IMG/VR virus record: IMGVR_UViG_3300044731_001604
Coordinates: 93,573 to 157,572 of that record
Source: a virus
DNA length: 64,000 bases
Direction: 5' to 3' (one strand)
A program made the position numbers and the translations under genes. Below the pieces are notes generated by a model, which saw only the letters and a program-made list of their open reading frames with translations, made no database searches and was not told the origin of the DNA. This document shows, piece after piece, positions 16,204-53,600 of the stretch. Each line of letters starts with the position of its first letter. The first letter of the stretch is position 1.

Positions 16204-17595
16204 TTAGAACAAGTTATCAATGATAACGTTCTTACGTGGTTGATATCCAGCTAAAGTCAAGAAACGGAAGTGAGCTTCAGTTTCAGAAAGTTCAGCTTGA
16301 GCAAGTTTCATACGGCTGTATGGGCTAAGCTCATGGAATCCCCATGTATCTTTTTGGATCATGTAACCAGTTACGAAACCTGGAGCTTTGTTTCCAAGGT
16401 CAGTAAATACTTGTGATGCAGAACCATCTGATTTCATTCTTCCGATGAATTTAGCAGTAGCTGCAGAGCTTCCTCTGTAAACGTTGTAATGAGTAGCACC
16501 AGCAACGCCAGCGATAGTCAAGTCAACTCTTTCACCAAGAGTAACAGTTACAGCAGCAGAAGCAGTAGCAACGCCTTCGCCACGTTCATTTTCAGCAGTA
16601 ACTAAATAGATATAGCTTCCTGCAGGGATGATAGCACCAGATCCTGTGTGAGCGCCAGAAACAGTAGCTGGAGCAGCAGGAGATCCGATCATTGGACGTA
16701 ATGGGCTAGTTTTTCCAGACAAGAAACGGCTATCTTCGATAGCAACAGTTCCGTTAGAAACCCATTGTCTACGGAGGTCGGCACCAGAAGCATCTTGTGC
16801 AGAACCAGCAAGCATAATTCTTTGGATGCTGTTAGCACCTGTTCCAAGAGCGATAGCTTTATTGTATCCAGAAAGGATAACAGGGTCAACATAAAGAGTT
16901 TCAGCTTTACCCATGTTCATGCGTGAACGAAGAGCAGCATCTTCAATAATAGGTTGATCTAAAGCACCATTTTTAGAAAGAACTACTGATTGGTTTGATC
17001 CGTAAGAAGCAAACATTAAATCTTGTGTAGAAACAAGAATATCAGACATACGGATGTGAGAATCAACACCCATCATGTTTGGAAGTTCAGGGATAGCATT
17101 TGGATTACCGTCGAAAACACCATTGTTAGAAAAGTGAGCTTTTCCACCGAAAGCGTCGAATTCGATATCAGCAGCAAGTTTGATAGCTGCGTTTTCTGCT
17201 TCTCTATCAGCAGCTTTTTTACCGTCAATAGTTTCCATCATGTTTGCAGCGATAGTTACACGCTCAATACAAGAATAGAAGCACATTGGAACAGTCGCTC
17301 TGATATAATCGCCAACATTAAGATCGCCTACTGCGCCTTCACGTTGAGCAGATCCGCCGAAGCGTCCATAAGAAAGCTGTCTGTTGAATTGAACCAACAA
17401 AGACTTAGCTTTTTTAACTGGGAAGAGCTTTTGTAATTTAATGTGACTATCATCAAATGTCACATTGTGCATTACAGGCTCAAGGTTTTCGATTTGGAGG
17501 GCAGAACCTTGAACAAGTTGCGAAGGAGCAACGTTGTAGTTTCCAGCCTCAAGAGTTTTGACCAGACCCTCTAGAGTCTTAACTAGGTCATTCAT
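16204..17595 (-). CDS. Major capsid protein with an inserted Ig/FN3-like domain
   Basis: 463 aa. Context (overlapping the scaffold gene, followed by a strong terminator) and sequence support a HK97-fold capsid protein of the T4/large-phage kind. The N-terminus has two KTLE repeats and the segment VKTLEAGNYNVAPSQL (12-27), which recurs in the protease-kinase protein. SRMNMGKAETLYVDP and SRMKLAQAELSETEAHFRFL are typical core elements. Residues about 305-405 (SYIYLVTAENERGEG, THYNVYRGSSA) look like an inserted Ig/fibronectin-III-type domain on the capsid surface. N-terminal processing is likely. GGGGG precedes the ATG, which overlaps the scaffold stop. Confidence 0.9.
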   Translation of the reverse strand: MNDLVKTLEGLVKTLEAGNYNVAPSQLVQGSALQIENLEPVMHNVTFDDSHIKLQKLFPVKKAKSLLVQFNRQLSYGRFGGSAQREGAVGDLNVGDYIRATVPMCFYSCIERVTIAANMMETIDGKKAADREAENAAIKLAADIEFDAFGGKAHFSNNGVFDGNPNAIPELPNMMGVDSHIRMSDILVSTQDLMFASYGSNQSVVLSKNGALDQPIIEDAALRSRMNMGKAETLYVDPVILSGYNKAIALGTGANSIQRIMLAGSAQDASGADLRRQWVSNGTVAIEDSRFLSGKTSPLRPMIGSPAAPATVSGAHTGSGAIIPAGSYIYLVTAENERGEGVATASAAVTVTLGERVDLTIAGVAGATHYNVYRGSSAATAKFIGRMKSDGSASQVFTDLGNKAPGFVTGYMIQKDTWGFHELSPYSRMKLAQAELSETEAHFRFLTLAGYQPRKNVIIDNLF

Positions 17596-18419
17596 TTATT
17601 ACCCCCTTTAGAGTTAATTAATTTTTCGATTTCTTGTTGACCTTCTCCGTATAAGAAGAAAGTGTTTATCATTTCACGTTCATTTTTTGTTAAAGAAGCG
17701 TTTCTGCTGAGCTTAGTAGCTTCAGCTTTAACTTCTTCTTTGCTTAATTGTTTATTGCTATTCATTTCTGATTTAGCAACAAATTGGATATCTGTAATTG
17801 ATTTTCTAGAAGGTTTAGCTAGAACTTCAAAAGCTTTAGTAATTTGAGCTAAAGCGTGAGCTTGTTCTTGAACTTGTTTTTCTAGAGCAATAATTTTTTC
17901 AGATTTTTCCATTTCATCTTGTTGTTCCGGTTGTTCTTGTTCTTCAGGTTGTGCAGGAGTTTCTTCAGGTTGCTCTTGTGGAGCAGCTTGTTGGTCCTCT
18001 TGTCCATAAGCACTTTGCAATGCTTGTCTGATTACAGAATAATGCCGTTCTAACTCTTGATGATCCATGCTACCATAAATTTGACTAAGCTCTTCATCAG
18101 TAAGAGGAGCATCTTCTTGCTCTTCTTCTAATTGTTGATCAGGTTGCTCTTCAGGTTGTTCTTCTGGTTGTTCTTCTGGTTGTTGTTCCTGTTCAGGTTG
18201 AGCTTCTTGCTCAGGTGCTTGTTCTTGCTCAGGAGCAGCCATTTCTGGTTGTTCTTCAGCAGGAGCTGGAGCAGCTTCCTCTTCAGGTTGAGCTTGATCT
18301 TCTTGTGGAGGCATATCATCTTTTCTTAACGAGCTTTTTGACAAAAAAGATGCTTTAGCAAGGACTTCATCAACCCCTGCAATCAATGCATCTAATTCGC
18401 TTTCGCTGTAATTTTTCAT
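17592..18419 (-). CDS. Probable scaffold / prohead core protein
   Basis: 275 aa, strongly acidic. Residues about 35-165 are a low-complexity Glu/Gln/Pro tract with repeats of EQPEEQPE. The C-terminal third is helical (IALEKQVQEQAHALAQITKA) and basic at the end. An acidic helical protein directly upstream of the capsid gene and overlapping it by 4 bp is the usual place and composition of a phage scaffold. The AT-rich gene uses CAA/GAA runs that could be prone to length variation. The call rests on context and composition. Confidence 0.75.
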   Translation of the reverse strand: MKNYSESELDALIAGVDEVLAKASFLSKSSLRKDDMPPQEDQAQPEEEAAPAPAEEQPEMAAPEQEQAPEQEAQPEQEQQPEEQPEEQPEEQPDQQLEEEQEDAPLTDEELSQIYGSMDHQELERHYSVIRQALQSAYGQEDQQAAPQEQPEETPAQPEEQEQPEQQDEMEKSEKIIALEKQVQEQAHALAQITKAFEVLAKPSRKSITDIQFVAKSEMNSNKQLSKEEVKAEATKLSRNASLTKNEREMINTFFLYGEGQQEIEKLINSKGGNK

Positions 18420-19439: not shown

Positions 19440-22400
19440 CTATTCTTTTAGTTTAGGCTTTCTTGGCTTTTTTACTTTTGCAGTTTTTTCTTTAGCTTGA
19501 ACTGGCTCATCAGTTAAGCTTAAGGCCCAGCAATGAGTAGGCAGTCCTTTTTTTCTTGTTTCATTTAATGTATCTACACTTTTATGAGGATAGTCTGTAT
19601 AATCTACTTTTGTAAATCCATATTTTTGTGCTGTACCATCGTAAATATCTGTAATTCTTGGGTTAATAAAATCTTTATTATATTCTCTTAATTGGCCATT
19701 TACCATAGATCCGCCAGACATGTGGCTTCTAATTCCTGCTCCGTGCATATAAAGAGTTTTAACTCCTTGTGCTTTTGCGTTTTCTATAACTGTATTCATA
19801 CCAGCTTTTGACCATTCACCTAGTTGAGCATCAATCTTTTTGATATAATCTTTTATTTCTTTTGGAGAAAGTTTGTGACCATCAATTTCTAATCCATTAG
19901 GAGAGTTAGCCAAGATAGTTCTAATATTTTTTCTAAACTTTTGCGCAAAATCAGATTGAAATTCTTCTATAATCCAACCATCTTTATTAGAACTTGTATC
20001 AACTCTTGACCAAGCTACCATTTGTGGCGTAGTTGGGTGCAGCCCAATAGATGATTCTCTAATACCATTAGTTTCTTTTAAAACCATTTGATATAATGCC
20101 CACAATTTTGGATCTTGAGACATTTCTTTTTCAGACTTTTCGGAATTGTTTAATTGAAAAACTAATGATGGCTTATTTGCATGTTGTTGTAACTTTAAAT
20201 CAAAAATAGAATACGTCATGTGGTATTCTTTTGCCTTATCTTGTATCTCTGCTGATTGCATAGCATTTACAAAATCTTCTGGCACAACTGGTTTATTGTT
20301 TTTTGACATAAAAATATTTTTAATAACTTTGTTGTTTTCTAGTTCTGGGTTCATTTTTTTGAAATCTGCCCACATGATACCATCTGCAGGTACTTTATTC
20401 ATTGTATTTTGTAATACATCGACATCTTTATCATGAACCGACACAGATTTAACTAATTTTTCTTCGCTTATTGTTTTTTTAAATTCTGACGGTAAAGCTG
20501 GCGCGAACTTTCTCATTAAATATCCGCCCCAAGTTGGATTTGCAAATGCTGGATGATACTGTCTACTTGGCAAGAATACTACTTGTTTATCATTTGAAGT
20601 CTCTTCGTATAATCTTTCTACAGACTCTTTTGATAAATTTGGATGTTTTAACAATACCATTGCTAAACTACTTGATTCTTGTTTATTAAGATTGTTATAT
20701 CCACTTTTATGATTCTCTATTAAAATATTTGATATTTTATCTAATGAGGATACATCAGTTCTATAATTTCTTAATAACTTGTCAACAATTTCTGTTGATT
20801 TTAAATCTTTTTCCCAATTATTAACAATTTCATTTGAGTGTTTTTTGTCTATAAATAAAGACGATGCGTATACTTCGTCTACGCCACGCTCTTTTACGTA
20901 CGAGTCGGCCAGGTCTTGGCCGCCAACACCATATTGTAATGCTATTGCTTGCGTATTGTATTTTTGAGCATGATCAAGATCTTGAACTAGATCTTGAAAT
21001 TCACTATAAGATACTTTATCTCCAAGGGCTTTAAACGGTGCTGACAAATCTGGTGGAGTTACATCTGGATCTGTAAAAACGTTAACAACTTTAGACAGTA
21101 CACCTTTTCCGTATTTATCTAATGTGTTATCGTCCATTCTTCCAATCATTTTGACGGCAGAGTGTACGGCTGATTGCGGATCAGCTTCATAAGCTTTTTC
21201 AAATGAATAAGCTCCTAATACATTAGAGTTTAATTCTTGAACGCCATCTAAACAGAAGTTAAACTCTGGATGTTTTTCAAAATGTATTTGCCAATCTGAT
21301 AACTGAGCGTCTTTTGCTCTGTTAATTAACTTTTTGTAATCTCTTATGTCTACTGGATATGAAAGACTTATATCATATCCACCTTGTTTTGACATACTGA
21401 TTATATTGCTTATATGGTTTAAATCTTCATTGCTTATGTCTAAGCTTGAATAAGTAACATCTCTTAGCACTTCGCTTGCGATTTCTGCATTTTTTTTGAC
21501 ATCTTCTGGTTTGCTATTTTTTAAAATAGTGCCTAAATGTTTGTCTAAGCTTTCGTATACTTTGCTATATGTTTGTAATTTACTTTTAACATCAGTAGAG
21601 CTTTCGTCAAAGAAAGTTCCGCCAACAAATTTAGCTAGTGGTGTTAAATGTTTTTTAATTTCGGATAAATGTGACTCGCTAAGATATTCGCTTCCAAAGT
21701 ACGGAGATCCTTCGTCTTGTGGTACCATTAGCTTGTCTAATTCATCAATTTTAGATTCTACAAGCTGATGTAACGCTGTACTTAATGAATTTAATTTTTC
21801 TTTAATACCTGATTTAGATAAAGAGAATATAACGCCTATTTGAGCAGAGTACACGTTGTGTGGTATTGACCTTCCAAGTTTTGCTAGAGACTCTGGGGAA
21901 ACAACTGGGTTCGTAGATAAATCACCAAATGCAGTTATTCTGTCACTTTCATTTATTTCATTATCTAAAAATAATCTATTAGTAACTACATCTATATTTT
22001 GTTTTGTCAATTTCCCAAAATTTTCTGAGTCAGACAGGAACTTTCTTAGCTTATGCCCTGTTATATTTTCCAAAATATCTGGATTGTTTGTATCTAAATT
22101 TCCATATTCGATATTATTAGCTATCTCTGGTGTATTTGGTAAATTTTTAAATATACTTGTCTTTTCTTCTTTAGGAATCTTTGAGTATAGCATTTTTGCT
22201 AGACTTTTATTAGCATATTCAGATGTAATAGGGTCTTCGCTAAGAGTGTGCTTTTTAAGAAAATTTGTAATACTTTGTAATTTTGACTGATCTTCAGTGT
22301 GCGCTTGAGAAAGTCTAGTAAAAAGGTTTTTTTGCTTGTCATAATCTTTATGTTGATCTATACTTTTTTGGGCTTCTTTATCTAAAGTATTAACGAAAGT

Positions 22401-25400
22401 TTCTGCTAATTTTTGATTAGAATCATCATGTCCTATGGAAGTAGCACCTGATAAAAGCGTACCAGATCCGAAAGATTCTGGGGACGTTTGTAACATATTA
22501 ATCAAATGTTTATTATATGTTGATGGTAGAATTTTTTTATCTATCATATCGTATAACAAATCTCCATTTTTATTTGAGATTGTGCTATCTACCATTTTTT
22601 TGGCCAAATCTTTTACTTGTTTTACTGGTCCTAAGCTTTCGTAAACTTTTTTAAAAAATCTATCTTTTAGGGCGTTAAGCCCTTCGTTCGACCAATTTTG
22701 TAAATTGTTAATTTTTTCAAACAATGGATTGATTAAATTTGGTAATATTTTTTTTGTGTTACTATCTAAATCAGTGTCAAATAGTTTAGTTATATAGAAT
22801 GCTTTATCATCATCTGCAACATGATCAAAAAAGTTTAACATATCGTTAGATACTTCTTCATGATCATTGTTAAATTTATGATTATAAAGATACATATCTG
22901 GTTGAAATTGGTTTACAGCAGCTTCAAAATCAGGTTGAGATAGGCTTTTACCTTTAACAGAATTAAGAATGTAATCCATTTTTTTAGAATGTTCTATTGA
23001 ATCTAATTTTTCCGTAAAGCTTTTTTTACTTTCTAATTCTGCTTTTTTCTCTTCAGATAACAAACCATCTTTTAGTAAAATCCGATTTAGTTCGTTTCCT
23101 TGTTCTGATCCACTAGAATCAACTAAATCATCAAATACTTTTCCAGCCTTATTAGCGACTCTTGTGGATGCTCTGCTATATAGTATGTCTTTCCATGTTT
23201 TTGTAATATAATCCTGTTTTTCTTGTGGATTTTCTATTTTATCTGCATGTGATTTAATAAAATCTTTTAAATTAGATACAACACCTTGAAGTTTATCTGC
23301 TCCAGAATGTTCATTTTCAAGCAAATGCTCTATTGCGGCAGTTGTTCCAATAGACTCTACTTTATCTTCTGGTACAATATTAAGGATATTTTTATGTTTT
23401 TTAAAATCTCGATCTAGACTTGATATTATACTATTAGATTTACTATCTTCTGAATTCTTAATTGTATCTTTTAAAATTGAGACATGAGATTTATTTGAGG
23501 GGCTCATACCGCTTATAACTGATTTTTCTAAATTCCCTAAAATATGTCTAGGTTTCATGTCTTCCGGAAGAAGATCGTTATAGTGACCAGATAGTATTTT
23601 TTTATTTTCTTCATGGTTGTTTAAATCGTGTGGATTAAAATAGTATTTTCCACCAGTTACTAAGTCATGTTTTTCTGGTGGAGTTAATTTATCCCAAAGC
23701 TCATTTTTTACTTTTTCTGGAGTATTTTTTGTCGCTATTATTAGCGGCGCAGCTCCTCCATTTGAGATTTCTAATAAATCGTTAATATTTTTTTCTTTTT
23801 CAGAATCGCTCATGTCTTCAAACTTATCTGAGAGCCAAGTTTGATTTTCGTTATTTTTTGATCCCCAGTCATGAGTATCAAGAACACCAGGATAGTCTTT
23901 AACTATTTTTTTAACAGTACCCATTGATGAATAGTCATTGTGTATTAATTTCCATGCGTCAGACGAATATTTATCTGGCATTCCATATTGATCATATATT
24001 TGTGTATTATTTTCTTTATTTGCTTTATCTGCATCATAAAGCTTGTCTAAGAAACTTGCCGATGTCCTAGATTTACTATCTAGTAGATCTTTAGTTAATC
24101 CTGGGTGTTGTAAAGCAAAATCCTCTGCTTTTTTATTGCCATTTGATATTAAGTCTTTTACTGATTGTTTTAAATCTAACTTGTGTTCCTGTGAAGAATA
24201 GTACCCAGATCTTGGGTCATTTCCACTATATATGCTCATGTTTTTTGGATGAGACTCAGAAAACATTTGTAAAAGATCATCCGTATTTGAATCTCTTTCA
24301 TCTTGTGATAGTTCTGGGCTTTTAATTAAATCAAGTTTATTTTGAACAACATCACTTAAGCTTTGCTTGCTTTTTTTGGAAATTTCTTCTAGATCTGTTC
24401 CTTTAAGCTTTTCATGCATGGTTCTTAGAGATAGGTGCTTATCTTCTGGCGACATTTTGTCCCAAGCTTCCATAGCCTTACTATCTTTCCACATGTCATG
24501 TAGATTTCTTTTTCCTTGCTTAAATTCATTTGTATATATATCATGTCCAGCTAGTGGGTGCTGTTTGGCTGCTTCGTATACATCTAAAGCTTTTCTTTTT
24601 AATGCAGTGTCAACTACATCTTTATTAACATTTTTATGTTTCAATGCATCTATTGCGATATTTTTACTTTTATGATTAACAATTTCTTTTAAAACATCGG
24701 GTGGTAAATTTTTATAGCCAAGCATTTTTCTTGCTGCGTCGGTATCTTTACTGCTTAAATCCCAAGCTTTTTTAATTGAATCTGGATTCGTATTTTTATG
24801 ACCTAAGAATTCTTTGTGGCCATTAGACACCAGTTTATCTATTTGGTCTGGCGATAAATTTTCATTAAGATTTAGGGCCTCTTTTTCGTGCCAATCTAAT
24901 TCTGGTTTTTCTACTACGGAGCTTAAAACTTCATTTGGCAAATTTGAATGCCCTAATGCGTGTCTCAATAAGCTTCTTTTATTATGATCTGATTCTTCTG
25001 AATTATAAGTCTTAACAATTTTTCCTAAAAGCGTCGGATCGGCATTTTTATGGGAAACAATGGAGCTAATCGTGTTTGGATAATCTTTTGATGAACTTTC
25101 ATAAACATTGTGTAATCTATTTAATTGATCTTTTGATAAATCATTGTTACCTATAAAATCAGACACAAGATCATCAGAATCAATTGTGCTAGACGGATTA
25201 GTTGGGGCGTTAAATCCATATATTGGGCCCTTTTCAAAAATTTTTACGCCTCTTTCAATTGAATCAGGTGTGTGATGCTTTGTTGTTGCATAACCAAGAC
25301 GAACTATTTCATCTTCGTTGTCTGTTTTTGCATTAGGCTCATCTTCTGTGTGATTTTTTCTATTGTTTAATAAATTTTCGTAGAACTCTGGCGTTAAATT

Positions 25401-25790
25401 TTTAACAGGTGGTCTTGATCCGTATGTTTCATTAATATATTTATTGGCTCTATCTTCAAGAACTTTTGTGTCAACATTTGGGTGTACGCTTGCCCCTTTT
25501 GACCTGTAAGCTGTATCGTTCATAGCAATATGGTTAACTACATCTGACGGTGTATTTGGATTATTAAGCATGCCATCAACAATTGAGTTGATCTCATGTT
25601 CTCCTACTTTTGGAGCAATATGGTTATATAATTTAGAGATAGACTCTTTTGGCGCATTCGCATGTTCTGCAATATCAGACATAAAAGCATGATCGTATAT
25701 GGTTTTATCCTCATGCGGAGTATTAATATAATTTTCAACATGAGAATTTAGAACATCTGATGGCGTATCTGTAGTTAATTCTTTGCTCAT
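19440..25790 (-). CDS. Giant (2116-aa) polyvalent-type protein with LRV-like repeats
   Basis: The longest gene in the window. The first 420 residues contain repeats such as HKNADPTLLGKIV, HSNLPNEVLSSVV and YKNLPPDVLKEIV, resembling the leucine-rich-repeat-variant (LRV) solenoid. A long helical, Lys/Asp/Ser-rich middle follows. The C-terminus (from about 1930) has DGWIIEEFQSDF and SKAGMNTVIENAKAQGVKTL, matching the 'EEiQSD' domain of phage and mobile-element polyvalent proteins. Such proteins are thought to be packaged and injected to act early in the host. No tail tape-measure features (long hydrophobic segments, lysozyme domain) are visible. GGGAG precedes the ATG; it overlaps an HNH gene by 4 bp. 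Confidence 0.7.
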   Translation of the reverse strand: MSKELTTDTPSDVLNSHVENYINTPHEDKTIYDHAFMSDIAEHANAPKESISKLYNHIAPKVGEHEINSIVDGMLNNPNTPSDVVNHIAMNDTAYRSKGASVHPNVDTKVLEDRANKYINETYGSRPPVKNLTPEFYENLLNNRKNHTEDEPNAKTDNEDEIVRLGYATTKHHTPDSIERGVKIFEKGPIYGFNAPTNPSSTIDSDDLVSDFIGNNDLSKDQLNRLHNVYESSSKDYPNTISSIVSHKNADPTLLGKIVKTYNSEESDHNKRSLLRHALGHSNLPNEVLSSVVEKPELDWHEKEALNLNENLSPDQIDKLVSNGHKEFLGHKNTNPDSIKKAWDLSSKDTDAARKMLGYKNLPPDVLKEIVNHKSKNIAIDALKHKNVNKDVVDTALKRKALDVYEAAKQHPLAGHDIYTNEFKQGKRNLHDMWKDSKAMEAWDKMSPEDKHLSLRTMHEKLKGTDLEEISKKSKQSLSDVVQNKLDLIKSPELSQDERDSNTDDLLQMFSESHPKNMSIYSGNDPRSGYYSSQEHKLDLKQSVKDLISNGNKKAEDFALQHPGLTKDLLDSKSRTSASFLDKLYDADKANKENNTQIYDQYGMPDKYSSDAWKLIHNDYSSMGTVKKIVKDYPGVLDTHDWGSKNNENQTWLSDKFEDMSDSEKEKNINDLLEISNGGAAPLIIATKNTPEKVKNELWDKLTPPEKHDLVTGGKYYFNPHDLNNHEENKKILSGHYNDLLPEDMKPRHILGNLEKSVISGMSPSNKSHVSILKDTIKNSEDSKSNSIISSLDRDFKKHKNILNIVPEDKVESIGTTAAIEHLLENEHSGADKLQGVVSNLKDFIKSHADKIENPQEKQDYITKTWKDILYSRASTRVANKAGKVFDDLVDSSGSEQGNELNRILLKDGLLSEEKKAELESKKSFTEKLDSIEHSKKMDYILNSVKGKSLSQPDFEAAVNQFQPDMYLYNHKFNNDHEEVSNDMLNFFDHVADDDKAFYITKLFDTDLDSNTKKILPNLINPLFEKINNLQNWSNEGLNALKDRFFKKVYESLGPVKQVKDLAKKMVDSTISNKNGDLLYDMIDKKILPSTYNKHLINMLQTSPESFGSGTLLSGATSIGHDDSNQKLAETFVNTLDKEAQKSIDQHKDYDKQKNLFTRLSQAHTEDQSKLQSITNFLKKHTLSEDPITSEYANKSLAKMLYSKIPKEEKTSIFKNLPNTPEIANNIEYGNLDTNNPDILENITGHKLRKFLSDSENFGKLTKQNIDVVTNRLFLDNEINESDRITAFGDLSTNPVVSPESLAKLGRSIPHNVYSAQIGVIFSLSKSGIKEKLNSLSTALHQLVESKIDELDKLMVPQDEGSPYFGSEYLSESHLSEIKKHLTPLAKFVGGTFFDESSTDVKSKLQTYSKVYESLDKHLGTILKNSKPEDVKKNAEIASEVLRDVTYSSLDISNEDLNHISNIISMSKQGGYDISLSYPVDIRDYKKLINRAKDAQLSDWQIHFEKHPEFNFCLDGVQELNSNVLGAYSFEKAYEADPQSAVHSAVKMIGRMDDNTLDKYGKGVLSKVVNVFTDPDVTPPDLSAPFKALGDKVSYSEFQDLVQDLDHAQKYNTQAIALQYGVGGQDLADSYVKERGVDEVYASSLFIDKKHSNEIVNNWEKDLKSTEIVDKLLRNYRTDVSSLDKISNILIENHKSGYNNLNKQESSSLAMVLLKHPNLSKESVERLYEETSNDKQVVFLPSRQYHPAFANPTWGGYLMRKFAPALPSEFKKTISEEKLVKSVSVHDKDVDVLQNTMNKVPADGIMWADFKKMNPELENNKVIKNIFMSKNNKPVVPEDFVNAMQSAEIQDKAKEYHMTYSIFDLKLQQHANKPSLVFQLNNSEKSEKEMSQDPKLWALYQMVLKETNGIRESSIGLHPTTPQMVAWSRVDTSSNKDGWIIEEFQSDFAQKFRKNIRTILANSPNGLEIDGHKLSPKEIKDYIKKIDAQLGEWSKAGMNTVIENAKAQGVKTLYMHGAGIRSHMSGGSMVNGQLREYNKDFINPRITDIYDGTAQKYGFTKVDYTDYPHKSVDTLNETRKKGLPTHCWALSLTDEPVQAKEKTAKVKKPRKPKLKE

Positions 25791-26452: not shown

Positions 26453-27066
26453 TGGTCCAACCTAGATGGACTGGACCCATACTTCATTTTATATAAAATT
26501 CGTTTTACGTAGTTAGGAGATTCAGCGCCGCGATAATCCCCTGACTCAATTTCATAGTCATATTCTGGTGTGCTTAATTTCCCAGCTTCAATCGCTTGTT
26601 TTTGTTCTTTTCTAATGTTATCTAAAGCAGCTTTGGATATAAAGTTTTTTTCTTGTTTTCTTTCTGTAGGTTTAATAGACGGCATAATTGGGTAAGGTTG
26701 CGTTCCATCAGTTTTTCTAGTTACAGATATTTCTCCACGCTTAATTGCTGCAAATAACGCATCTTTTTCTTCTGGATCTAACATTTTACCATTTAAGATA
26801 CAAGTGTGCCCGTCAGAAGATATCTCAGCTACGTCACCGTTGCTTAAAATATATCTAAACATTGTTATGGAAGATTTGGTAGGTTCTTCCAAAGAAAGGT
26901 GGGACGATGCAGATACTTTTCTAGAAAGCTCTTTAAAAGAATTATTAGCCATTTTTGGCACAAAGCCATTAGAATTATCAACTATAAATTCAATCTGGTC
27001 TCCCTCAACTCTAATTTCAGCTAATGGTACTTTAGATTGCGTGGATTTTACTACATAGATTTTCAT
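26449..27066 (-). CDS. Hypothetical protein (205 aa)
   Basis: Starts MKIYVVKSTQSKVPLAEIR; the N-terminal half is beta-rich with ISSDGHTCILNGKML, the C-terminal half Lys/Glu-rich and probably disordered, ending in SPSRLDQ. It overlaps the protease-kinase gene by 4 bp and the HNH gene by 4 bp. No family is recognised; an assembly-associated role is suggested by position. Confidence 0.5.
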   Translation of the reverse strand: MKIYVVKSTQSKVPLAEIRVEGDQIEFIVDNSNGFVPKMANNSFKELSRKVSASSHLSLEEPTKSSITMFRYILSNGDVAEISSDGHTCILNGKMLDPEEKDALFAAIKRGEISVTRKTDGTQPYPIMPSIKPTERKQEKNFISKAALDNIRKEQKQAIEAGKLSTPEYDYEIESGDYRGAESPNYVKRILYKMKYGSSPSRLDQ

Positions 27067-28733
27067 TTGTCATCTCCTGGCAATAAAAGACTTTTTTGAT
27101 TAATTGTGTCACTTACAGCTTGGGCTCTGTCCCATGCGTTTTGCATAGTGATCGGTCTTTTAGAGTCTGCCTGATATGATTTTAACACACCTAGAGACTT
27201 TTGTATAGTTTTTTTATCAAAACCATGATGTTTCATGCGTAAAGCCAATACTTTAGGGTCAACGCTTTGAATCCATTTAGATGCTTCTGGGTGTATTGCT
27301 GAACTATCATTTTCTAAATAATCTGGCTTCATATACACATGGCTAAAAGCATAATCATTATCAATATTTAAAAGATGCCCGTCTGGATGAATTAAAACAT
27401 TACCAAGGTGTCTGTCGCTATTTTGAAGAACGTGGTCTAATATCGCTAATTTATGCAGACTTCCATCTTCCGTAGCTTTTTTATGCGCATTGTCCCAAGC
27501 TTCTTGGGACTCTAGTGGAGTTTTAGACCCCTTGATATACTCCACTGCTTGAGTTGAAAGCCCACCATGTACTTCTGGGTGCTTAATGGCTGCAGTTGTA
27601 GGAACATGTTTTTCCATGCCAAATACATTTCTTGCAATATCAGAATAGTGTGAGGCATTGTGATTTTGAGATTCCTGATTTTCGCCCATTGATAAACTGC
27701 TTGGGCCTTTTAAAAATACATCTTGCCCATTGTCGTTTCTTAAAATATGTAATTGTTTATCTGGACGGTATGAATCATGTCCAGGTGAGAATTTTTGCTT
27801 ATTATCAAAATACAAACCTTCAACCAAGTTTTTTTGATCATGATTTGCATTAATATGAGAATGAGTTTGATTAATTCTAGTTAACTTAGGCTCGCCTTTT
27901 TTTAGAGCAAGGTCTTCAGCAACATCAGCAAAGTGTTCTATATAAGTATCAGATATTTCAGGAAGAGCCGCCTTAAGAACTTCTTTAAGTGGTCTTTTTC
28001 TGTCCCAATCTCTAATTGCCGCTTTGATTTTATTCTTATTGGTTTTATTAACTATTTGTTCTCTAACTAAAGCTGCGCCGCCTGTAAGTTGTCCTGGTGC
28101 GACATTACCCATTCCGGCTTCTAGAGTTTTATTAAGCTCGTCAATAGCCTTTTTCATATCAGTAAAGTCTATTGCATCATCAGATAGAACGATTGAGTCG
28201 ATTGTTACTGTTGAAATTGATGAGCTTTCAAATTTTTTAACGATCTCTTCTGATTCTTTGTCAGTCATAACATCAATCCAGCATTGCTTATTACATGGAG
28301 TTAATGTGATCGCTACCTTTTTCATCATAGCTCTTTTAAGGATATTGCCATCTCGCTCAAGAGTCACGCCTTCGATTGAGGCTCCAACTTGGATTGGTTC
28401 TTTTTTATTATGAAAGTAACGAATCATTGCTGCAATTGCCAAAGCTCCATGGTGTTCTTCTTCATCAAAAAGCTCAAGTGCCCCATAGATAAACGGAACT
28501 TTTACTTGATCCCAGAATTTACGTTGACGATCAGTTTCACAATCGCCCTTTTTTAAAATTTTTTTTGCATATTTAAATACGCCAATTGCTGCAACTTCAG
28601 GAGAGTCGTTTTTGTGTTCAAAATTGGCAAACACTTGCCCTTTTTCAACAAGAGATATGTCTACGTTTTCAATTAATAGCGATTCGCCACTAGAATCAAT
28701 AGCTTGTGTCGCAATAGGCATGTCTATTATCAT
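27063..28733 (-). CDS. Prohead-protease-like domain fused to a PI3/4-kinase/HipA-like kinase
   Basis: 556 aa. Residues 1-165 look like a phage head maturation protease: FANFEHKND (candidate His39), KVPFIYGALELFDEEE, VGASIEGVTL (candidate Ser119) and KRAMMKKVAITLTPCN, in the order seen in prohead proteases. Residues 200-222 (LNKTLEAGMGNVAPGQL...) nearly repeat the N-terminal segment of the major capsid protein. From about 330 the protein is kinase-like: DVFLKGPS, then LQNSDRHLGNVLI (catalytic loop, about 435-447) and LLNIDNDYAF (about 453-462). A fused maturation protease and kinase, joined by a capsid-type tag, is unusual. Ribosome site GGAG; the promoter may be TATGGTATATG about 20 bp upstream. 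Confidence 0.75.
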   Translation of the reverse strand: MIIDMPIATQAIDSSGESLLIENVDISLVEKGQVFANFEHKNDSPEVAAIGVFKYAKKILKKGDCETDRQRKFWDQVKVPFIYGALELFDEEEHHGALAIAAMIRYFHNKKEPIQVGASIEGVTLERDGNILKRAMMKKVAITLTPCNKQCWIDVMTDKESEEIVKKFESSSISTVTIDSIVLSDDAIDFTDMKKAIDELNKTLEAGMGNVAPGQLTGGAALVREQIVNKTNKNKIKAAIRDWDRKRPLKEVLKAALPEISDTYIEHFADVAEDLALKKGEPKLTRINQTHSHINANHDQKNLVEGLYFDNKQKFSPGHDSYRPDKQLHILRNDNGQDVFLKGPSSLSMGENQESQNHNASHYSDIARNVFGMEKHVPTTAAIKHPEVHGGLSTQAVEYIKGSKTPLESQEAWDNAHKKATEDGSLHKLAILDHVLQNSDRHLGNVLIHPDGHLLNIDNDYAFSHVYMKPDYLENDSSAIHPEASKWIQSVDPKVLALRMKHHGFDKKTIQKSLGVLKSYQADSKRPITMQNAWDRAQAVSDTINQKSLLLPGDDK

Positions 28734-29313: not shown

Positions 29314-30192
29314 CTAGTGATTGCATCCTTCGTGACATTGATGCGGATTTTCTAAATTTTGTGACCATTCTAAGTATTCGTCATAATCCATAAATTGCTC
29401 TGCTTTGATTAATCGTTCACCTGTAGGCTCTTCAGATTTATGTACGCTATAGTATTCAGAGTAATAATCATGCGTAAATGATTTAAAGTCAGAAATACCT
29501 TGTTCATTAAAAGTAAAACCTGGGGCAACCATGGTCATAGTGTGTCTGCAGTTGGGGTGAGCGCCGTCAAATGGAGTTTTACCATCCCATAACTTTGGCT
29601 TAAAATATCCATGTGCTAATTGTGATAATTTATATGGTCTTGGTTTTCTAATATTGTTAGGATCATGGTACATCTGTTTGCAATATTTGCAAATTTTATC
29701 ATCCACCACTCCACGAAAAACTATGGTTGGATCAGATACGCCAATATCACTTGCGACTCTGGCGATACCTTCTCGGTTTGCATAGGCAATGACACTTCTA
29801 GTTTCGTTTCCTGTCAACATTTCGACATATTTACTAGCTTTATCAAAATGATCTTTAACTGATGCCATTGCTTCTTTGTGATCTTTGGCTGCTAAAATAG
29901 CGTTTAATATATGATTTTTAACTTTAAGCTTTTGAGAATCAAAATAATTGCCCGTTATTTCCGCTAAATTTTCTATAGTTTTTTGATCTGGTCTAATACC
30001 GGCACCATACATCATAGCTAATGCCCAAGTATACAAACCTTCAATGCTATCTAATGGATCTGATTGCCCTAATACTTCAAAAATAATATGAGGTCCCTTG
30101 AAATATCTTCCAAGAAGTCTAGCTTTTGTTGTTTCAAAAAGCTTTTCAATTCTTTGTAGAATAGTTTTTCTTTGAGAATCACTTAATTTCAT
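29314..30192 (-). CDS. Mu F-like / SPP1 gp7-like minor head protein
   Basis: 292 aa. The N-terminal 150 residues are helical. The C-terminal half has the phage head-morphogenesis zinc-like signature: DKICKYCKQMYHDP (CxxC), then GAHPNCRHTMTMV (HPNCRH). This pattern marks Mu gpF/SPP1 gp7 minor head proteins, which are usually encoded next to the portal and present in a few copies in the capsid. Here the gene directly follows the portal gene. The C-terminus ends with a His/Cys cluster (HQCHEGCNH). A TGTAGTATAAT motif lies just upstream. Confidence 0.8.
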   Translation of the reverse strand: MKLSDSQRKTILQRIEKLFETTKARLLGRYFKGPHIIFEVLGQSDPLDSIEGLYTWALAMMYGAGIRPDQKTIENLAEITGNYFDSQKLKVKNHILNAILAAKDHKEAMASVKDHFDKASKYVEMLTGNETRSVIAYANREGIARVASDIGVSDPTIVFRGVVDDKICKYCKQMYHDPNNIRKPRPYKLSQLAHGYFKPKLWDGKTPFDGAHPNCRHTMTMVAPGFTFNEQGISDFKSFTHDYYSEYYSVHKSEEPTGERLIKAEQFMDYDEYLEWSQNLENPHQCHEGCNH

Positions 30193-30222: not shown

Positions 30223-32265
30223 TTAATCTTTTTTATCTTTTAAGATTTTAGACATTTCTTCTAAAGCCTTTTTAGACTCTTCTTTCCACTTATCCATATG
30301 ATTATTAACTAATTCTTTGTGTCTTCTTAGTAATTGTCTAGTAAGAGAATTGTGATTATTTTTTAAAGATTTATCTAGTGCCGCATAGTTAACTAATTGA
30401 AACTCTGTTTTTTGCATTTGATCTTGTTCGCCATCCTGTTGTTCTTCTTGTTGTCCATCTTGCTGCTCTTCTGGTTGTCCTTGCGCCATCATTGCTTGTT
30501 GCTGCATTTGTTGTTGCATCATCATCTGTTGTTGCATTGCAGCCTGTGCTTTTTGTAAATCCATTTGTGCTTTTTGGAAATAAAACGGATCTCTTACGTA
30601 ATTCCATCTAGGGTCTTGAGCCGCACCTTTGATTTTAAAGAAATTCTCTAGTATAACACCAACCGGAACATATTTATCTAAAATTTGTTGATATTGAGGA
30701 TTCATTGGCAAATCTGCACCAAGTTCAGTTGGTACTAAGTTCTTTTCTACTGCCTTCATAATATCATTATATGACATATGAACGGCCATATCTTGTTGCA
30801 ATCTAGTGTTTTCTTTTTCCGGAGAATCTTTTTCTAATCCAGTCAAAACTATTTGATGTGTTTTTGCTAATTCTGGGTCAATTTTAGGAAGAATGTGAGT
30901 ATTAAGGAAATCTTGAAAATCATACAAAAGAGGTCTGATACCGATATCTCTTGCAGCATTTAATTTCCACTCATTATCACTTTCGCCCAAAGCTTGTGTG
31001 TTTGTTCCTCTAGCTAAATATCCCATTGAAGGAACTTCTTCTGGGGACATTTGGAATGCTGATAATATAACCCTGGCATTATTATCCATTAGATACTGGA
31101 ATTCAGCATCTCTTCCGCCTTGATCCATTTGCTGCCAAGATATTTCATCTTCTTGGCCAACAGCAAATACTGGAGTTCTCCAACTATTGCTTACAGAATT
31201 GATTGATTGCTGAAATTGTAGTCTTGTTCTTTGTAACATTGCTTCATCGGCAGAATCTGATTTAAAAATTAACATACCCTTAGCAGCACGTCCATTTTGG
31301 AAGTAAAGCTTATTATGCATAGTTATGTTAATATGCGTAGTAATGGCATTTAATGCTTGATCAATTGGAGTAAGTGGGTAGCCATTGTGTTCAATATTTG
31401 TTGTTGGGTATAAATTGTATACAACTAATTCTTCTTCAGTAAAAGCTTGCACTGGCTTAAGATCGACAACTTGAACATATCTATATTCATCTTTTGTGTA
31501 TTTTTCTACATCAATTTTTTTGTTTTTTAATTGCTGTAATTGTCTTAAAGCTTCTCTTCTTAAAGATTGGTCTTGTTCTTTTTGTGGCAACATTTTATAA
31601 ATTGTGCCAGCATCAGCAGCTCTCCATGCATACAATTCTTTTTGAGCAGTCTTTGGGTTTATATGCCAGATAAACTCTGTAGCAAATCTTCCATAAGCAA
31701 CGCCATCTCTAGTAGATAGTTTTAAGAACTGAGACAAATTCATTCTATCAGTCTCTTCGTCTAGAGTTCCTTTGCCACAATTCCAGAGCATTTTTTTAAC
31801 TTTTTCTATTTTTTCTTGAAGTATCTTTTGTTCTTCTGGACTTCTGACGGCATTTTTGTCCATGTCTTGAACGTCAAAACCATTTGAAAATCTATCAATT
31901 CTAGGTCTACCAAAAGAAGATACATGATTTGATCTGATTTGCAAAATTTGATTAACTAATTCGTCTCCACCTGGGCCTGTAATCTTTTTAATGATTGAAT
32001 CTGGAGTTAAATTTTGCTTAAGCTTATAGAAACCCATCGCACCTTGATAATTTGCGTGAGGATCTACTTCAAAAGCCATTCTTTCAACTTGATTAATACT
32101 TTGCTGATTAATTGATTTAACTATTTGACCTAAAATGCCATATGGTTCATTTTTAGAACCTAAAGCTTCTGCTTCTTCAGCCTTTTTCAATTCAGAAATA
32201 GCAACTGGATCAATTGCTATAACTGGCTGGGCTTTCTTTTTTTCGGTTTTCTTTAAATCAGACAC
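30223..32265 (-). CDS. Portal protein
   Basis: 680 aa, starting with GTG behind TGGAG. The order terminase, one virion gene, portal, Mu-F-like protein is the standard phage head cassette. Recognisable portal features are FLKLSTRDGVAYGRFATEFI and LYPTTNIEHNGYPLTPI, and MSPEEVPSMGYLARGTNTQA in the C-terminal third, as in large-phage portals. After about residue 580 there is a Gln/Met-rich tract (MQQQMMMQQQMQQQAMMAQ), probably a disordered internal tail. It would form the dodecameric DNA channel. Confidence 0.85.
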   Translation of the reverse strand: MSDLKKTEKKKAQPVIAIDPVAISELKKAEEAEALGSKNEPYGILGQIVKSINQQSINQVERMAFEVDPHANYQGAMGFYKLKQNLTPDSIIKKITGPGGDELVNQILQIRSNHVSSFGRPRIDRFSNGFDVQDMDKNAVRSPEEQKILQEKIEKVKKMLWNCGKGTLDEETDRMNLSQFLKLSTRDGVAYGRFATEFIWHINPKTAQKELYAWRAADAGTIYKMLPQKEQDQSLRREALRQLQQLKNKKIDVEKYTKDEYRYVQVVDLKPVQAFTEEELVVYNLYPTTNIEHNGYPLTPIDQALNAITTHINITMHNKLYFQNGRAAKGMLIFKSDSADEAMLQRTRLQFQQSINSVSNSWRTPVFAVGQEDEISWQQMDQGGRDAEFQYLMDNNARVILSAFQMSPEEVPSMGYLARGTNTQALGESDNEWKLNAARDIGIRPLLYDFQDFLNTHILPKIDPELAKTHQIVLTGLEKDSPEKENTRLQQDMAVHMSYNDIMKAVEKNLVPTELGADLPMNPQYQQILDKYVPVGVILENFFKIKGAAQDPRWNYVRDPFYFQKAQMDLQKAQAAMQQQMMMQQQMQQQAMMAQGQPEEQQDGQQEEQQDGEQDQMQKTEFQLVNYAALDKSLKNNHNSLTRQLLRRHKELVNNHMDKWKEESKKALEEMSKILKDKKD

Positions 32266-41854: not shown

Positions 41855-43636
41855 ATGTCTTTATTTCAAGCATCAAAACCAAAATCGGCAGGAAAAGTTA
41901 CGGTTCCATCCTCAAATCAATTATCTGAGGTAGTGTGTAAAACTCTTAATCATATGGCACAAATGGCAGGAGCAACTCTTGGTCCCGGCGGTAAACAAGT
42001 TTTGATTGAACGCGGTGAAATTGGCATGAAACCAATCTTAACAAAAGATGGTGTGTCTGTTATTAAATCCCTAGGGTATGATGGCGCGACTCAGCAATTA
42101 ATCCTTGAGGCTGCTAGAGATGCTGCAATCAGAACTGCTACAGAGGCAGGAGATGGTACGACTACTGCTACTGTACTTTCTGCTGCAATTACAAATGCTA
42201 CTGCCCATGTTGTTGCTAATAACCCAAAAGTGTCCCCACAAAAAATAGTACGCGAATTACAAAAAATCGTCCCTGTGCTGATCAAGATGATTAGCGATCT
42301 TAAGATTGACGTTACTGGAGAGAATTACCAAGAAGTTCTGTTAAAAGTTGCCACTTTGTCGGCTAATGGTGATACTGAGTTATCTTCAAAAGTACTTGAA
42401 GGTTTAGATTTAGTTGGAGATGAAGGCGACCTCACAATAGTTGAAGGTACTGGAGAGAGCAGATACTCTATCAATAGAATTAACGGTTACACAGTAGATA
42501 GAGGTCTTGAGGAATCTTGCAGAAATCTAGCTCAGGGTTTTATTAATGACAAATCTGGAACAATGGTAGTACTGGATAATCCGATCTTTATCCTCTATGA
42601 TGGTGTTATTAATGATTTTGGTCAAATTTTTGATGGACTTAGTAAATTAAATGCTACTTTGGAAGCTTCTGGTCGTCCAGATAGAAATGTAGTAGTAGTT
42701 GCTCATGGATTCGGCGAAATGGTATTAGGAGACCTTCACCATAACTGGAATCACCCGAAAGCTCCTCTTAAAGTTTACCCAATGCTAACTCCTGAAAAAG
42801 CAATTGCTAATTGGAGAACACAATTTCTTTATGATTTACAGGCATACACAGGTGCAACTGTGTTCAATCCAGTTGATAGACCTGTAATAGATATTATACC
42901 AGAATCAGTTATTGAATCTAATAGAGCAACTCGCGTAGAAATATCTAGATTCAAATCAATGGTTTTTGCAAAAGAAGATGTTGATGCTGTAAGCATTCGC
43001 GTTGATGAGCTTAAATTTCAAAAAAATGCTCCAGAAAGCGAATATGAGCTTAATGACTTAAATGTTAGAATCGGTAAGTTAACATCTGGAATTGTTAGAC
43101 TTGAAATATTTGGCCCTAGCTCTGGCGAAACTAGAGAGAAACGTGATAGAGCTGAAGATGCTTGGATGGCATTAAAAGGCGCTACTAAATATGGAGCAGT
43201 TCCTGGTGGAGGGTATGTACTTGTAAGACTGGCTGCTGCATTACAATTACAAGTAGATAAAATTCCACCGTCTGCTAAAAAATATGCTTATCAAATTCTT
43301 GCAGAAGCTTTATTAGAGCCAGTTAAATTATTATATAAAAATTATGGTTTTAATGATGAAGAAACTACTGAGCAAATATTTAAAATGTTAAATAATGACG
43401 ATCAAGCATACGACATTTTAGAAGAAATGTGGGTTCCAAAAGAACAATTATTAGATAGCGTTCCTGCTGTTAGCGAAGCGATCAGAAATAGTATTTCAAT
43501 TGCTTCATTGCTCGGTACGTTAGGTGGCATAGTTGCATTTAAACGCGATTATGATTCTGATAAAGAAGAAGAAAGACTTATTCGCAATTTTGAAGCCTCT
43601 ATTGGCGAACGTGGTTCTTTAGCTCAAGGAGAATAA
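41855..43636 (+). CDS. groEL: Phage GroEL-like chaperonin
   Basis: 593 aa, longer than bacterial GroEL (about 545). Conserved ATP-site segments are present: GATLGPGGKQVLIE (about 39-52), TKDGVSVIKSL (63-73), EAGDGTTTATV (97-107, with the Asp87 equivalent), RDRAEDAWMALKGAT (Asp398 equivalent) and AVPGGGYVLVRLA. The apical domain is divergent and the C-terminus lacks the GGM tail, ending GERGSLAQGE. Phage chaperonins are known to fold capsid or other large proteins. It has AGGAGG 5 nt before the ATG and starts the rightward operon. A GroES-like partner is at 37177-37464. Confidence 0.93.
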   Translation: MSLFQASKPKSAGKVTVPSSNQLSEVVCKTLNHMAQMAGATLGPGGKQVLIERGEIGMKPILTKDGVSVIKSLGYDGATQQLILEAARDAAIRTATEAGDGTTTATVLSAAITNATAHVVANNPKVSPQKIVRELQKIVPVLIKMISDLKIDVTGENYQEVLLKVATLSANGDTELSSKVLEGLDLVGDEGDLTIVEGTGESRYSINRINGYTVDRGLEESCRNLAQGFINDKSGTMVVLDNPIFILYDGVINDFGQIFDGLSKLNATLEASGRPDRNVVVVAHGFGEMVLGDLHHNWNHPKAPLKVYPMLTPEKAIANWRTQFLYDLQAYTGATVFNPVDRPVIDIIPESVIESNRATRVEISRFKSMVFAKEDVDAVSIRVDELKFQKNAPESEYELNDLNVRIGKLTSGIVRLEIFGPSSGETREKRDRAEDAWMALKGATKYGAVPGGGYVLVRLAAALQLQVDKIPPSAKKYAYQILAEALLEPVKLLYKNYGFNDEETTEQIFKMLNNDDQAYDILEEMWVPKEQLLDSVPAVSEAIRNSISIASLLGTLGGIVAFKRDYDSDKEEERLIRNFEASIGERGSLAQGE

Positions 43637-50633: not shown

Positions 50634-53600
50634 ATGTCTAAATTTAAACAATTGATTAATTGCCATTCTCACAGCGATTCTTCATTAGATGGTGCTTCCA
50701 CCGTATCAGATATATTAAAAAGAAATCAAGAACTTGGAGCAACTCACACAAGCTTAACTGAACATGGTAATTTAAATTCTGCCATGGATCTGTATACAAA
50801 AGCGAAAAAATATGATCAAATCCCAATACTTGGAATGGAAGCTTATTTAGTTAACCCATTCCATGAGGAATATGTTCAAATGTACAGAAAAGCTTATCAG
50901 CAAGGTGTGTGGAAGCCTAGAATCAAGGATACTAACCTTGAGGCAATTGAGAGAGCTATTCAAGCAAAGGCAATGAACCAATACCTCCACATAACTATTC
51001 ATTTTAAAGATAAGTGGGCATACCAGTATTTTTGCGGCCTTTCTAAGGCTATGTGGGATAGAGCAATTAAGAAGTTTGATGAATTAAAGCCAATGTTAAC
51101 CATGGATGAATTGCGAGGAGCAGCAGGGCACATAACAATTGGTTCTGGGTGTCTTAAAGGTCCTCTTCAGAACTTTTTATTGTCGTCAAAAGATGGAATT
51201 ATTAAGGCTGATCCAGAAAAATCCCAACAAATGTATAGATGGTTAAAAGAAATTTCTGGTGAAGACTTTTTTGTTGAAGTTTTTCCACACGAAATAACGT
51301 CTACATGGGTAGCACCAGAAAAAGACCACTCTGGAAACATTATTAAGCAGGGTTATTTTAAACCACATGAGTGTACTTGCGATATGCCTGATGGAGATTT
51401 GCAGCATGTGCCAAATCAATTTGTTTTAAATTTAGCAGAACAAAATAAAGAAAAAGTACTGATATCCCTTGATAGCCACTTTGCTTATGAGCGCCAAAGA
51501 GTTGTCCAAGAAGCAAGATTGGGCCAAGGCGATGAGCAATGGAAATTTTCTAACAGCTATCATGTAATGTCTACAGATGAGGCTGCTAATATCTTACAAA
51601 AGAAATTAAAAGTTTCAGATAAAAAAATTGAAGAATGGGTTGATAACTCGCATGAGTGGGCGTCTAAATTTAATAATTTCAAATTAGAGACATCAAAAGA
51701 TAGATGGGTTTTAGTCGGAGATAGTGAAAGATTTCTTAGCAAAATGAAGTCTACAATAGATAAATGGGGCAGGATGGATTGGTCCGACAAACAAATGATG
51801 GATCGACTTAAATATGAAATCCAAGTACTTGCCTATAACGGAACAGTGAACCTTCTGTCATATTTTGAGACCATAGAAGACATATCATCTTTTTGTAAAG
51901 AAAATAATGTACTAATGAACGTTAGGGGTAGCGCCTCTGGGTCTTTGTTACTATACTTAATCGGCGTGAGTGCAGTAAATCCTCTCAAACATGATCTTTC
52001 TTTTGCCAGATTCCTAACTGAGGGTCGTATTAACGCAAATTCTATCCCAGACGTTGATATGGACGTTTCTAATCAAGAGAAAGTAATAGATTACATTAAA
52101 AATAAATACGGAGAGTCATATTGCCGCCTCTCAACAGACCTTCTTTTAAGATTAAAATCATCTATAAAAGATGCAGAAAGAGCAGTTTTTGGAAAAGTTA
52201 ATCCAGAAACAGAGAAAATGTGTACAAAGTTACCATCTGCTCCACAAGGAACTGATGATCATTCGTTTGTTTTTGGATACGAAGATTCTGGTAACCATTT
52301 ACCTGGTTTATTAGAAACAAATCCAGCATTAAATAGCTATGCTGCAAAAAATCCAACAATTTGGAATACTGTTGTCGAAATGATGGGTATACAAAGATCG
52401 AAAAGCAGCCATGCTTGTGGATTATTGATTGCAGACGCGCCTATTACAAACTATATTCCAATTATTAAAGTTGGAGACGAATGGGTAACAGCATTCTCTC
52501 CAAAAGCTGCAGAGGCTGCTGGATTGGTTAAATTTGACTTACTTGGCCTTAATACTTTGAGAGACATACAATTAACCGTACAATCAATTAAAGAGCGTAC
52601 TGGAGAAGTCGTAGATCCATTTAACTTACCTCAAGATCCATTGTGTTACGAAAAATTCGCACAAGGTATCACAGATGGAGTTTTTCAATTTGACACTCCA
52701 ACCGTAAGACCATTTTTAATGAAAGTTAAACCACAAGATGTGGAAGGATTAGCAGCTCTCACAAGCTTATGCAGACCAGGAACCTTAGATGCTCCAAATG
52801 GAGATGGAAGAACTCTTGCTGAAGTGTATGTGGCCAGAGCATTGGGTGAGCCAATAACTTATGTACATAATGATTTAGAGCCAATCTTAAAAAGTACGTA
52901 TGGAGTTCAATTGTTTCAGGAGCAAACTATTAGAATTTTCCAAGATATTGGCGGAATGACGGATGCTGAGGCAGATGAAGTTCGTCGCGGTATCGGTAAG
53001 AAAGATAGAAAAGTTCTTGATAAAGCCTCTTCTATTTTAAGAGAAAAATGTTTATCTAGAGGCTGGACAGAAGAGCAAGTTAACCTATTAGTTGATCAGA
53101 TTCTAGCGTCTTCAAATTATGGATTTAATAAAAGCCATGCAATTTCATACAGCTATACAGCGTATGCTTGTATGTATTTAAAAACTCATTATAAATTAGA
53201 CTGGTGGAAAGCTTTATTAACTAATTCAACTAAAGAAGAACTTGCAACAAAATTCTGGAAAAGCGTACAAGATTTCACCGATCTCCCAGACATTAATATG
53301 TCATCTGATGAATATAAAATTATTGGTGATAGAATTATAACTCCGCTTTCAATCTTAACTGGCGTCGGCGAAAAGGCTTATGAAGATTTAATTAGGCACA
53401 GACCGTATACTTCTTTAGAGCATTTTGTTAGTTGTCATTTTGTAACTAAAGAAGAAGATAAAGCCAAAAAATTAGCAAAAAAAGCAAAGCAAGAAACTGG
53501 CGAAAGTACAAAATCTGTTAAAAAATCAGCAGTAAATGTCGGAATAGTCCATAAAATTATTGCCGCAGGCATTTTGGATTCACTATTTGAACCAGACCTC

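Follow-up and report, generated by a model that had tools for sequence, protein, structure and literature searches.

The maturation protease of large phages related to SPO1 and Mx1 carries a copy of the N-terminal arm of the phage's own major capsid protein (MCP), and in the virus described here the same ORF continues into a kinase of the PI3K/PI4K type. That this tag is real and family-wide is held with very high confidence. Recurrence of the arm copy in SPO1-family and Mx1-like proteases makes it the probable route by which the protease, together with whatever enzyme it is fused to, reaches the phage head. The DNA analysed, here called the window, comprises the last 64,000 nucleotides of an IMG/VR virus record 157.6 kb in length. 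Its head genes are ordered terminase-like, portal, MuF-like, fusion ORF, EndoVII-like, 2116-aa ORF, scaffold and MCP, and the features used below are as follows.

30223..32265, minus strand: portal protein (profile match)
29314..30192, minus strand: head morphogenesis (MuF-like) protein (phrog_4728, 1.1e-4)
27063..28733, minus strand: protease-tag-helix-kinase fusion ORF P0001, 556 aa, ATG start with AGGAG 6 nt upstream
28239..28733, minus strand: S78-type prohead protease catalytic domain, residues 1-165 (His40, Ser119), from homology, alignment and model
28053..28160, minus strand: capsid-arm tag, residues 192-227, from alignment to the MCP and the arm profile; low-confidence (flexible) in the model at 200-228
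28125..28130, minus strand: predicted scissile bond Lys202-Thr203, from the invariant Lys and Lys-Ser/Ala enrichment in scaffolds
27894..28046, minus strand: helical domain, residues 230-280, following the tag and shared by most relatives
27078..27881, minus strand: PI3K/PI4K-like kinase domain, residues 285-552 (Lys342, Asp440-Arg-His, Asn445, Asp458), from Pfam and fold match
17592..18419, minus strand: probable scaffold, acidic, directly upstream of the MCP, with Lys-Ser/Ala sites
16204..17595, minus strand: MCP, 463 aa (phrog_752, 5.6e-34)
17482..17592, minus strand: MCP N-terminal arm, residues 2-38, partner of the tag by alignment, with a predicted Lys13-Thr14 site

The original prediction of a prohead protease joined to a kinase is borne out for both halves. 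Residues 1-165 match the PHROG head maturation protease family (PHROG 1028, 2.4e-6), and tblastn relates the protein to the Mx1 prohead protease (39%, 9e-52) and to SPO1-type proteases (3e-6 to 3e-5; SPO1 gp3.2 about 3e-5). His40 and Ser119 are invariant in a four-protease alignment; Ser119 had been named correctly as a catalytic candidate, and the His39 named with it should read His40 (in NFEH). The kinase half matches Pfam PI3_PI4_kinase (PF00454) at 5e-11, with 43.4 bits against a curated cut-off of 27.1, and possesses the catalytic Lys, a DRHLGN loop and the metal-binding ID. In an AlphaFold model of the fusion ORF (24 sequences, mean pLDDT 80.5) both halves are predicted to fold, joined by the tag (residues 200-228) as a disordered linker. 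Foldseek pairs the modelled protease half with known prohead protease folds (best TMt 0.62, 3.6 A), and PI3K/PI4K folds are among the top PDB matches of the modelled kinase half.

The peptide reported to be common to enzyme and capsid subunit lies where the original prediction placed it, with both genes on the minus strand: residues 200-222 of the fusion ORF (coding 28068-28136) read LNKTLEAGMGNVAPGQLTGGAAL, and MCP residues 11-33 (coding 17497-17565) read LVKTLEAGNYNVAPSQLVQGSAL. A whole-protein local alignment, run unprompted and with no region preset, pairs about residues 192-227 of the fusion ORF with MCP residues 3-38 over 36 residues without a gap. Its score of 83 compares with a mean of 38 and a maximum of 64 in 1000 shufflings (extreme-value P about 6e-6). 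A tag profile built solely from MCP N-arms finds the fusion ORF at i-E 1e-7 among 18,985 ORFs. In the other direction, a protease profile searched against all PDB sequences has a sole match, the SPO1 capsid protein gp6.1 (9vel), and the match falls precisely on the tag (E=4e-5). The peptide is short and rich in small residues, which would suit a resemblance due to chance or composition, or a misassembly that joined unrelated genes. Such an explanation is extremely improbable in view of the P value obtained from the window alone and of full-length orthologs that have the same protease-kinase fusion at 45-49% identity, and it is already refuted by retention of the tag across dozens of phages and in cultured, unrelated isolates.

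The window had no match among phages by Megablast, and a single-sequence search of IMG/VR returned no relatives; a profile search did recover them. A scan of a genome collection added one relative, in a MAG labelled Saccharibacteria. The IMG/VR relatives were gathered with protease and MCP patterns that excluded the tag peptide. Run on the 18,985 ORFs, the MCP-arm profile matches 112 of 127 related protease ORFs (a set with redundancy), 94 of them with i-E below 0.01, and hardly any other ORF, so that the peptide is conserved in homologous phages. Several of the protease ORFs without a match appear by eye to be truncated or to have a decayed tag. That the tag has been lost or has decayed in a few proteases counts against the mechanism proposed below. 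A two-protein tag profile hits two places, MCP and protease, in each of 27 records with three exceptions: a third ORF in one, the MCP alone in the covered part of another, and the MCP with a non-protease ORF in the last.

Cultured phages agree. Read by eye, the tag is present in MCP and protease of all eight Herelleviridae inspected (MSA6, LMTA-94, Riverwalk, Iacchus, Troll, SPO1, EalM-132 and LysYB1), whose hosts are Staphylococcus, Listeria, Enterococcus, Lactobacillus, Bacillus, Exiguobacterium and Lysinibacillus, and in both proteins of Myxococcus phage Mx1. Every lineage has a version of its own that is common to its two proteins: MSA6 has KSFLTGHGTSPDTQVDAGALRKE and KSFQTGYGITPDTQIDAGALRRE, and Pseudomonas phage Touem01 has AGYGSDM..LSGGSA.R.QSLD in its MCP and in an ORF at the protease position that weakly matches the catalytic-domain profile. 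Over 75 own-pairs (window, SPO1 and EalM-132 each entered twice) the tag scores 74.3 against the arm of its own phage and 51.9 when pairs are permuted (P=2e-4). The tag tracks its own phage's MCP arm, which is not proof of selection, given the duplicate entries and a contribution from shared descent. In the stretches read of Bacteroides phage SJC03 and Chryseobacterium phage MA9V-3, which have related MCPs, there was no clear tag match outside the MCP, and the tag is therefore probably not universal for the capsid family of the window's MCP.

The original prediction offered two functions for the peptide, cleavage or scaffold binding. Cleavage gains indirect support. All 244 register-matched tags open with Lys, the next residue being Ala, Thr or Ser; nearly fixed within the tags are Gly, Pro, Leu, Gly, Ala, Leu and Glu. 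Scaffolds are proteins that proteases of this type shred, and across 96 scaffold ORFs adjoining the MCP, Lys-Ser occurs 692 times against 260 expected (z=29); the reverse order Ser-Lys is near expectation (z=3.4), Lys-Glu is depleted and Lys-Thr is not enriched (108 vs 121). Kinase domains have no Lys-Ser enrichment of this kind, and the window's own scaffold has a weak one (P=0.03). From these patterns the protease is predicted to cut on the C-terminal side of a Lys where the next residue is Ser or Ala and, by extension, where it is Thr. The invariant tag Lys together with the scaffold enrichment places the cut in the fusion ORF at the Lys202-Thr203 bond, a placement judged somewhat better than even; its weak point is the Thr in P1' of the window, given that Lys-Thr is not enriched in scaffolds. 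The matching predicted site in the MCP is Lys13-Thr14. Cleavage after Glu (LE-AG, by analogy with T4) was considered and rejected, as this Glu is replaced in the staphylococcal MCP and in most protease tags, where it becomes Thr, Asp or Ser. A literature search found no published mature MCP N-terminus for Herelleviridae. The capsid protein of Listeria phage A511 presumably loses 23 residues, which would fit a Lys23-Ser24 site.

Scaffold binding, as originally proposed, lacks support, since the extended motif is on no scaffold, and docking on the capsid lattice looks like the better reading: the 25 conserved residues after the Lys exceed what a cleavage site needs and resemble a copied capsid arm. 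The tag could instead be only a shared cleavage or substrate-recognition site, its copy in the protease serving self-cleavage or autoinhibition with no capsid docking, and the kinase being a passive C-terminal propeptide. This alternative would explain the invariant Lys and the position of the tag after the catalytic domain in every tagged protease, and it has a precedent in the SPN3US protease, which removes its own 64-residue C-terminal propeptide (PMC10052503). It is nonetheless considered unlikely, as Lys-Ser-rich scaffolds do without the extended 25-residue motif and the tag is also seen outside proteases, on a protein of its own and, extended by some more of the MCP, in a small unrelated ORF (L220, L218). 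The protease of record G024 has no tag; there the tag is carried by a separate 893-aa multidomain protein with a weak GNAT match and motifs like those of ADP-ribosyltransferases (a label from motifs only; the predicted model has pLDDT 46). In L218 about 54 residues of the MCP arm lie inside an otherwise unrelated 339-aa ORF (906-1922, minus strand). Both cases fit a docking module. MCP N-arm sequence is also seen inside another otherwise unrelated small ORF (L118:7384-8325, plus strand).

The proposed mechanism combines capsid-arm docking, self-cleavage and head-delivered cargo. The tag, as a copy of the MCP N-terminal arm, would dock the maturation protease and its fused partner inside the assembling shell, and would include the protease's own cleavage site. 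At maturation the protease would cut the MCP after Lys13 and itself after Lys202, so that the kinase half would begin with a sequence like that of the mature MCP; the freed half would then stay in the head and be delivered with the DNA. As a whole this explanation is given even weight for and against. Packaging of the kinase in the head is judged somewhat more likely than not, and its delivery to the host is put a little below an even chance. Mass spectrometry has found prohead protease in the virions of two large myophages that infect Gram-positive bacteria, Listeria phage CKA15 (PMC12282133) and Staphylococcus phage JS1 (PMC12977511). In T4 the prohead protease drops from 72 copies to 3 as the head matures (PMC9026906); a partner fused to the protease might likewise leave, which counts against retention in the head.

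The kinase may have other uses. A profile seeded with the P0001 kinase finds 60 ORFs in the loci collected; about twenty lineages have the domain joined to the protease, and it also occurs within other large ORFs of the same phages, some of which also have NUDIX domains. Most fusions retain Lys, DRxxxN and ID. About five fused orthologs (L008, L009, L078, L079 and L123 lineages) have lost the catalytic Asp or Asn, so kinase activity is not always needed; this too counts against the proposed mechanism. The cargo varies, and one protease fusion ends in GGDEF (L032, 9848-13948, plus strand). Orthologs that keep the domain despite the lost catalytic residues, and its place in a late head gene cluster, would suit a kinase that works on head proteins during assembly or is a structural core domain, with no host delivery. 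This is rated slightly less probable still than a tag that is only a substrate: retention of the catalytic residues in most fusions speaks against it, and recurrence of the kinase elsewhere and the varied cargo fit effectors better than a fixed assembly role. Besides these, the window has a second PI3K-like kinase ORF, P0004 (4808-6571, minus strand, 587 aa, Pfam 2.1e-9), in which no tag was found. Mx1 has a separate GGDEF gene near its protease gene (L004:16127-16858, plus strand), and the protease fusion at L029:9926-14266 (plus strand) seems by eye to be interrupted in its middle region by two intein-like insertions.

The tagged protease-kinase is a variant of known systems, namely T4-like head targeting and polyvalent proteins. 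T4 Alt and internal proteins enter the prohead via processed peptides (PMC9026906), and the proposed tag would by analogy resemble the T4 capsid targeting sequence, a peptide that directs enzymes to the interior of the prohead and is a substrate of the prohead protease. Packaged T4 proteins mostly have their propeptide at the N-terminus, with cleavage after Glu. The tag of the window differs in being internal (residue 192 onward), in copying the MCP arm and in that the cut probably follows Lys. Polyvalent proteins and MuF-effector fusions are large phage proteins in which head components are linked with enzymatic effectors, among them kinases (Iyer et al. 2017, PMC5512222). The fusion ORF likewise has at least two disparate enzymatic domains, protease and kinase, in one phage protein; it differs in that the carrier is the maturation protease and the kinase is PI3K/PI4K-like, not of the truncated Ser/Thr/Tyr type that the 2017 study describes. 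The SPO1/Herelleviridae head maturation protease (gp3.2 family, PHROG 1028) has the same catalytic domain, tag position and MCP family, but is 256-270 aa long with no fused enzyme; no description of its MCP-arm tag was found in the literature searched. The putative prohead protease of Mx1 (WNM70322) has protease, tag, helical domain and C-terminal kinase, and differs in its length of 1239 aa, an extra middle region and annotation as protease only.

In the literature searched there was also no explanation of how the maturation protease of the SPO1-type phage family, which includes SPO1 and many therapy phages, enters the procapsid, and the tag is a concrete, mutable candidate. Tentatively, SPO1-family and Mx1-like phages may use the MCP-arm copy as a general tag for capsid entry, which loads the protease into every prohead and, in Mx1-like phages, has become a port for swappable effectors that are cut free with the capsid arm and carried in the head into the host with the DNA. 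A single rule, after Lys and before a small residue, is predicted for cleavage of capsid, scaffold and protease. If the proposal is true, the tag would be a portable signal by which enzymes could be loaded into the heads of large phages. It also points to dozens of kinases and other enzymes in uncultured phages that have gone unrecognised and may be delivered from the head.

Other genes of the window include the 2116-aa ORF between the EndoVII-like gene and the scaffold (19440-25790, minus strand), which is without a Pfam match, a phage-encoded Cpn60-like chaperonin (41855-43636, plus strand, Pfam 1.6e-35) and a DNA polymerase III alpha-type protein with a PHP domain (50634-54374, plus strand).
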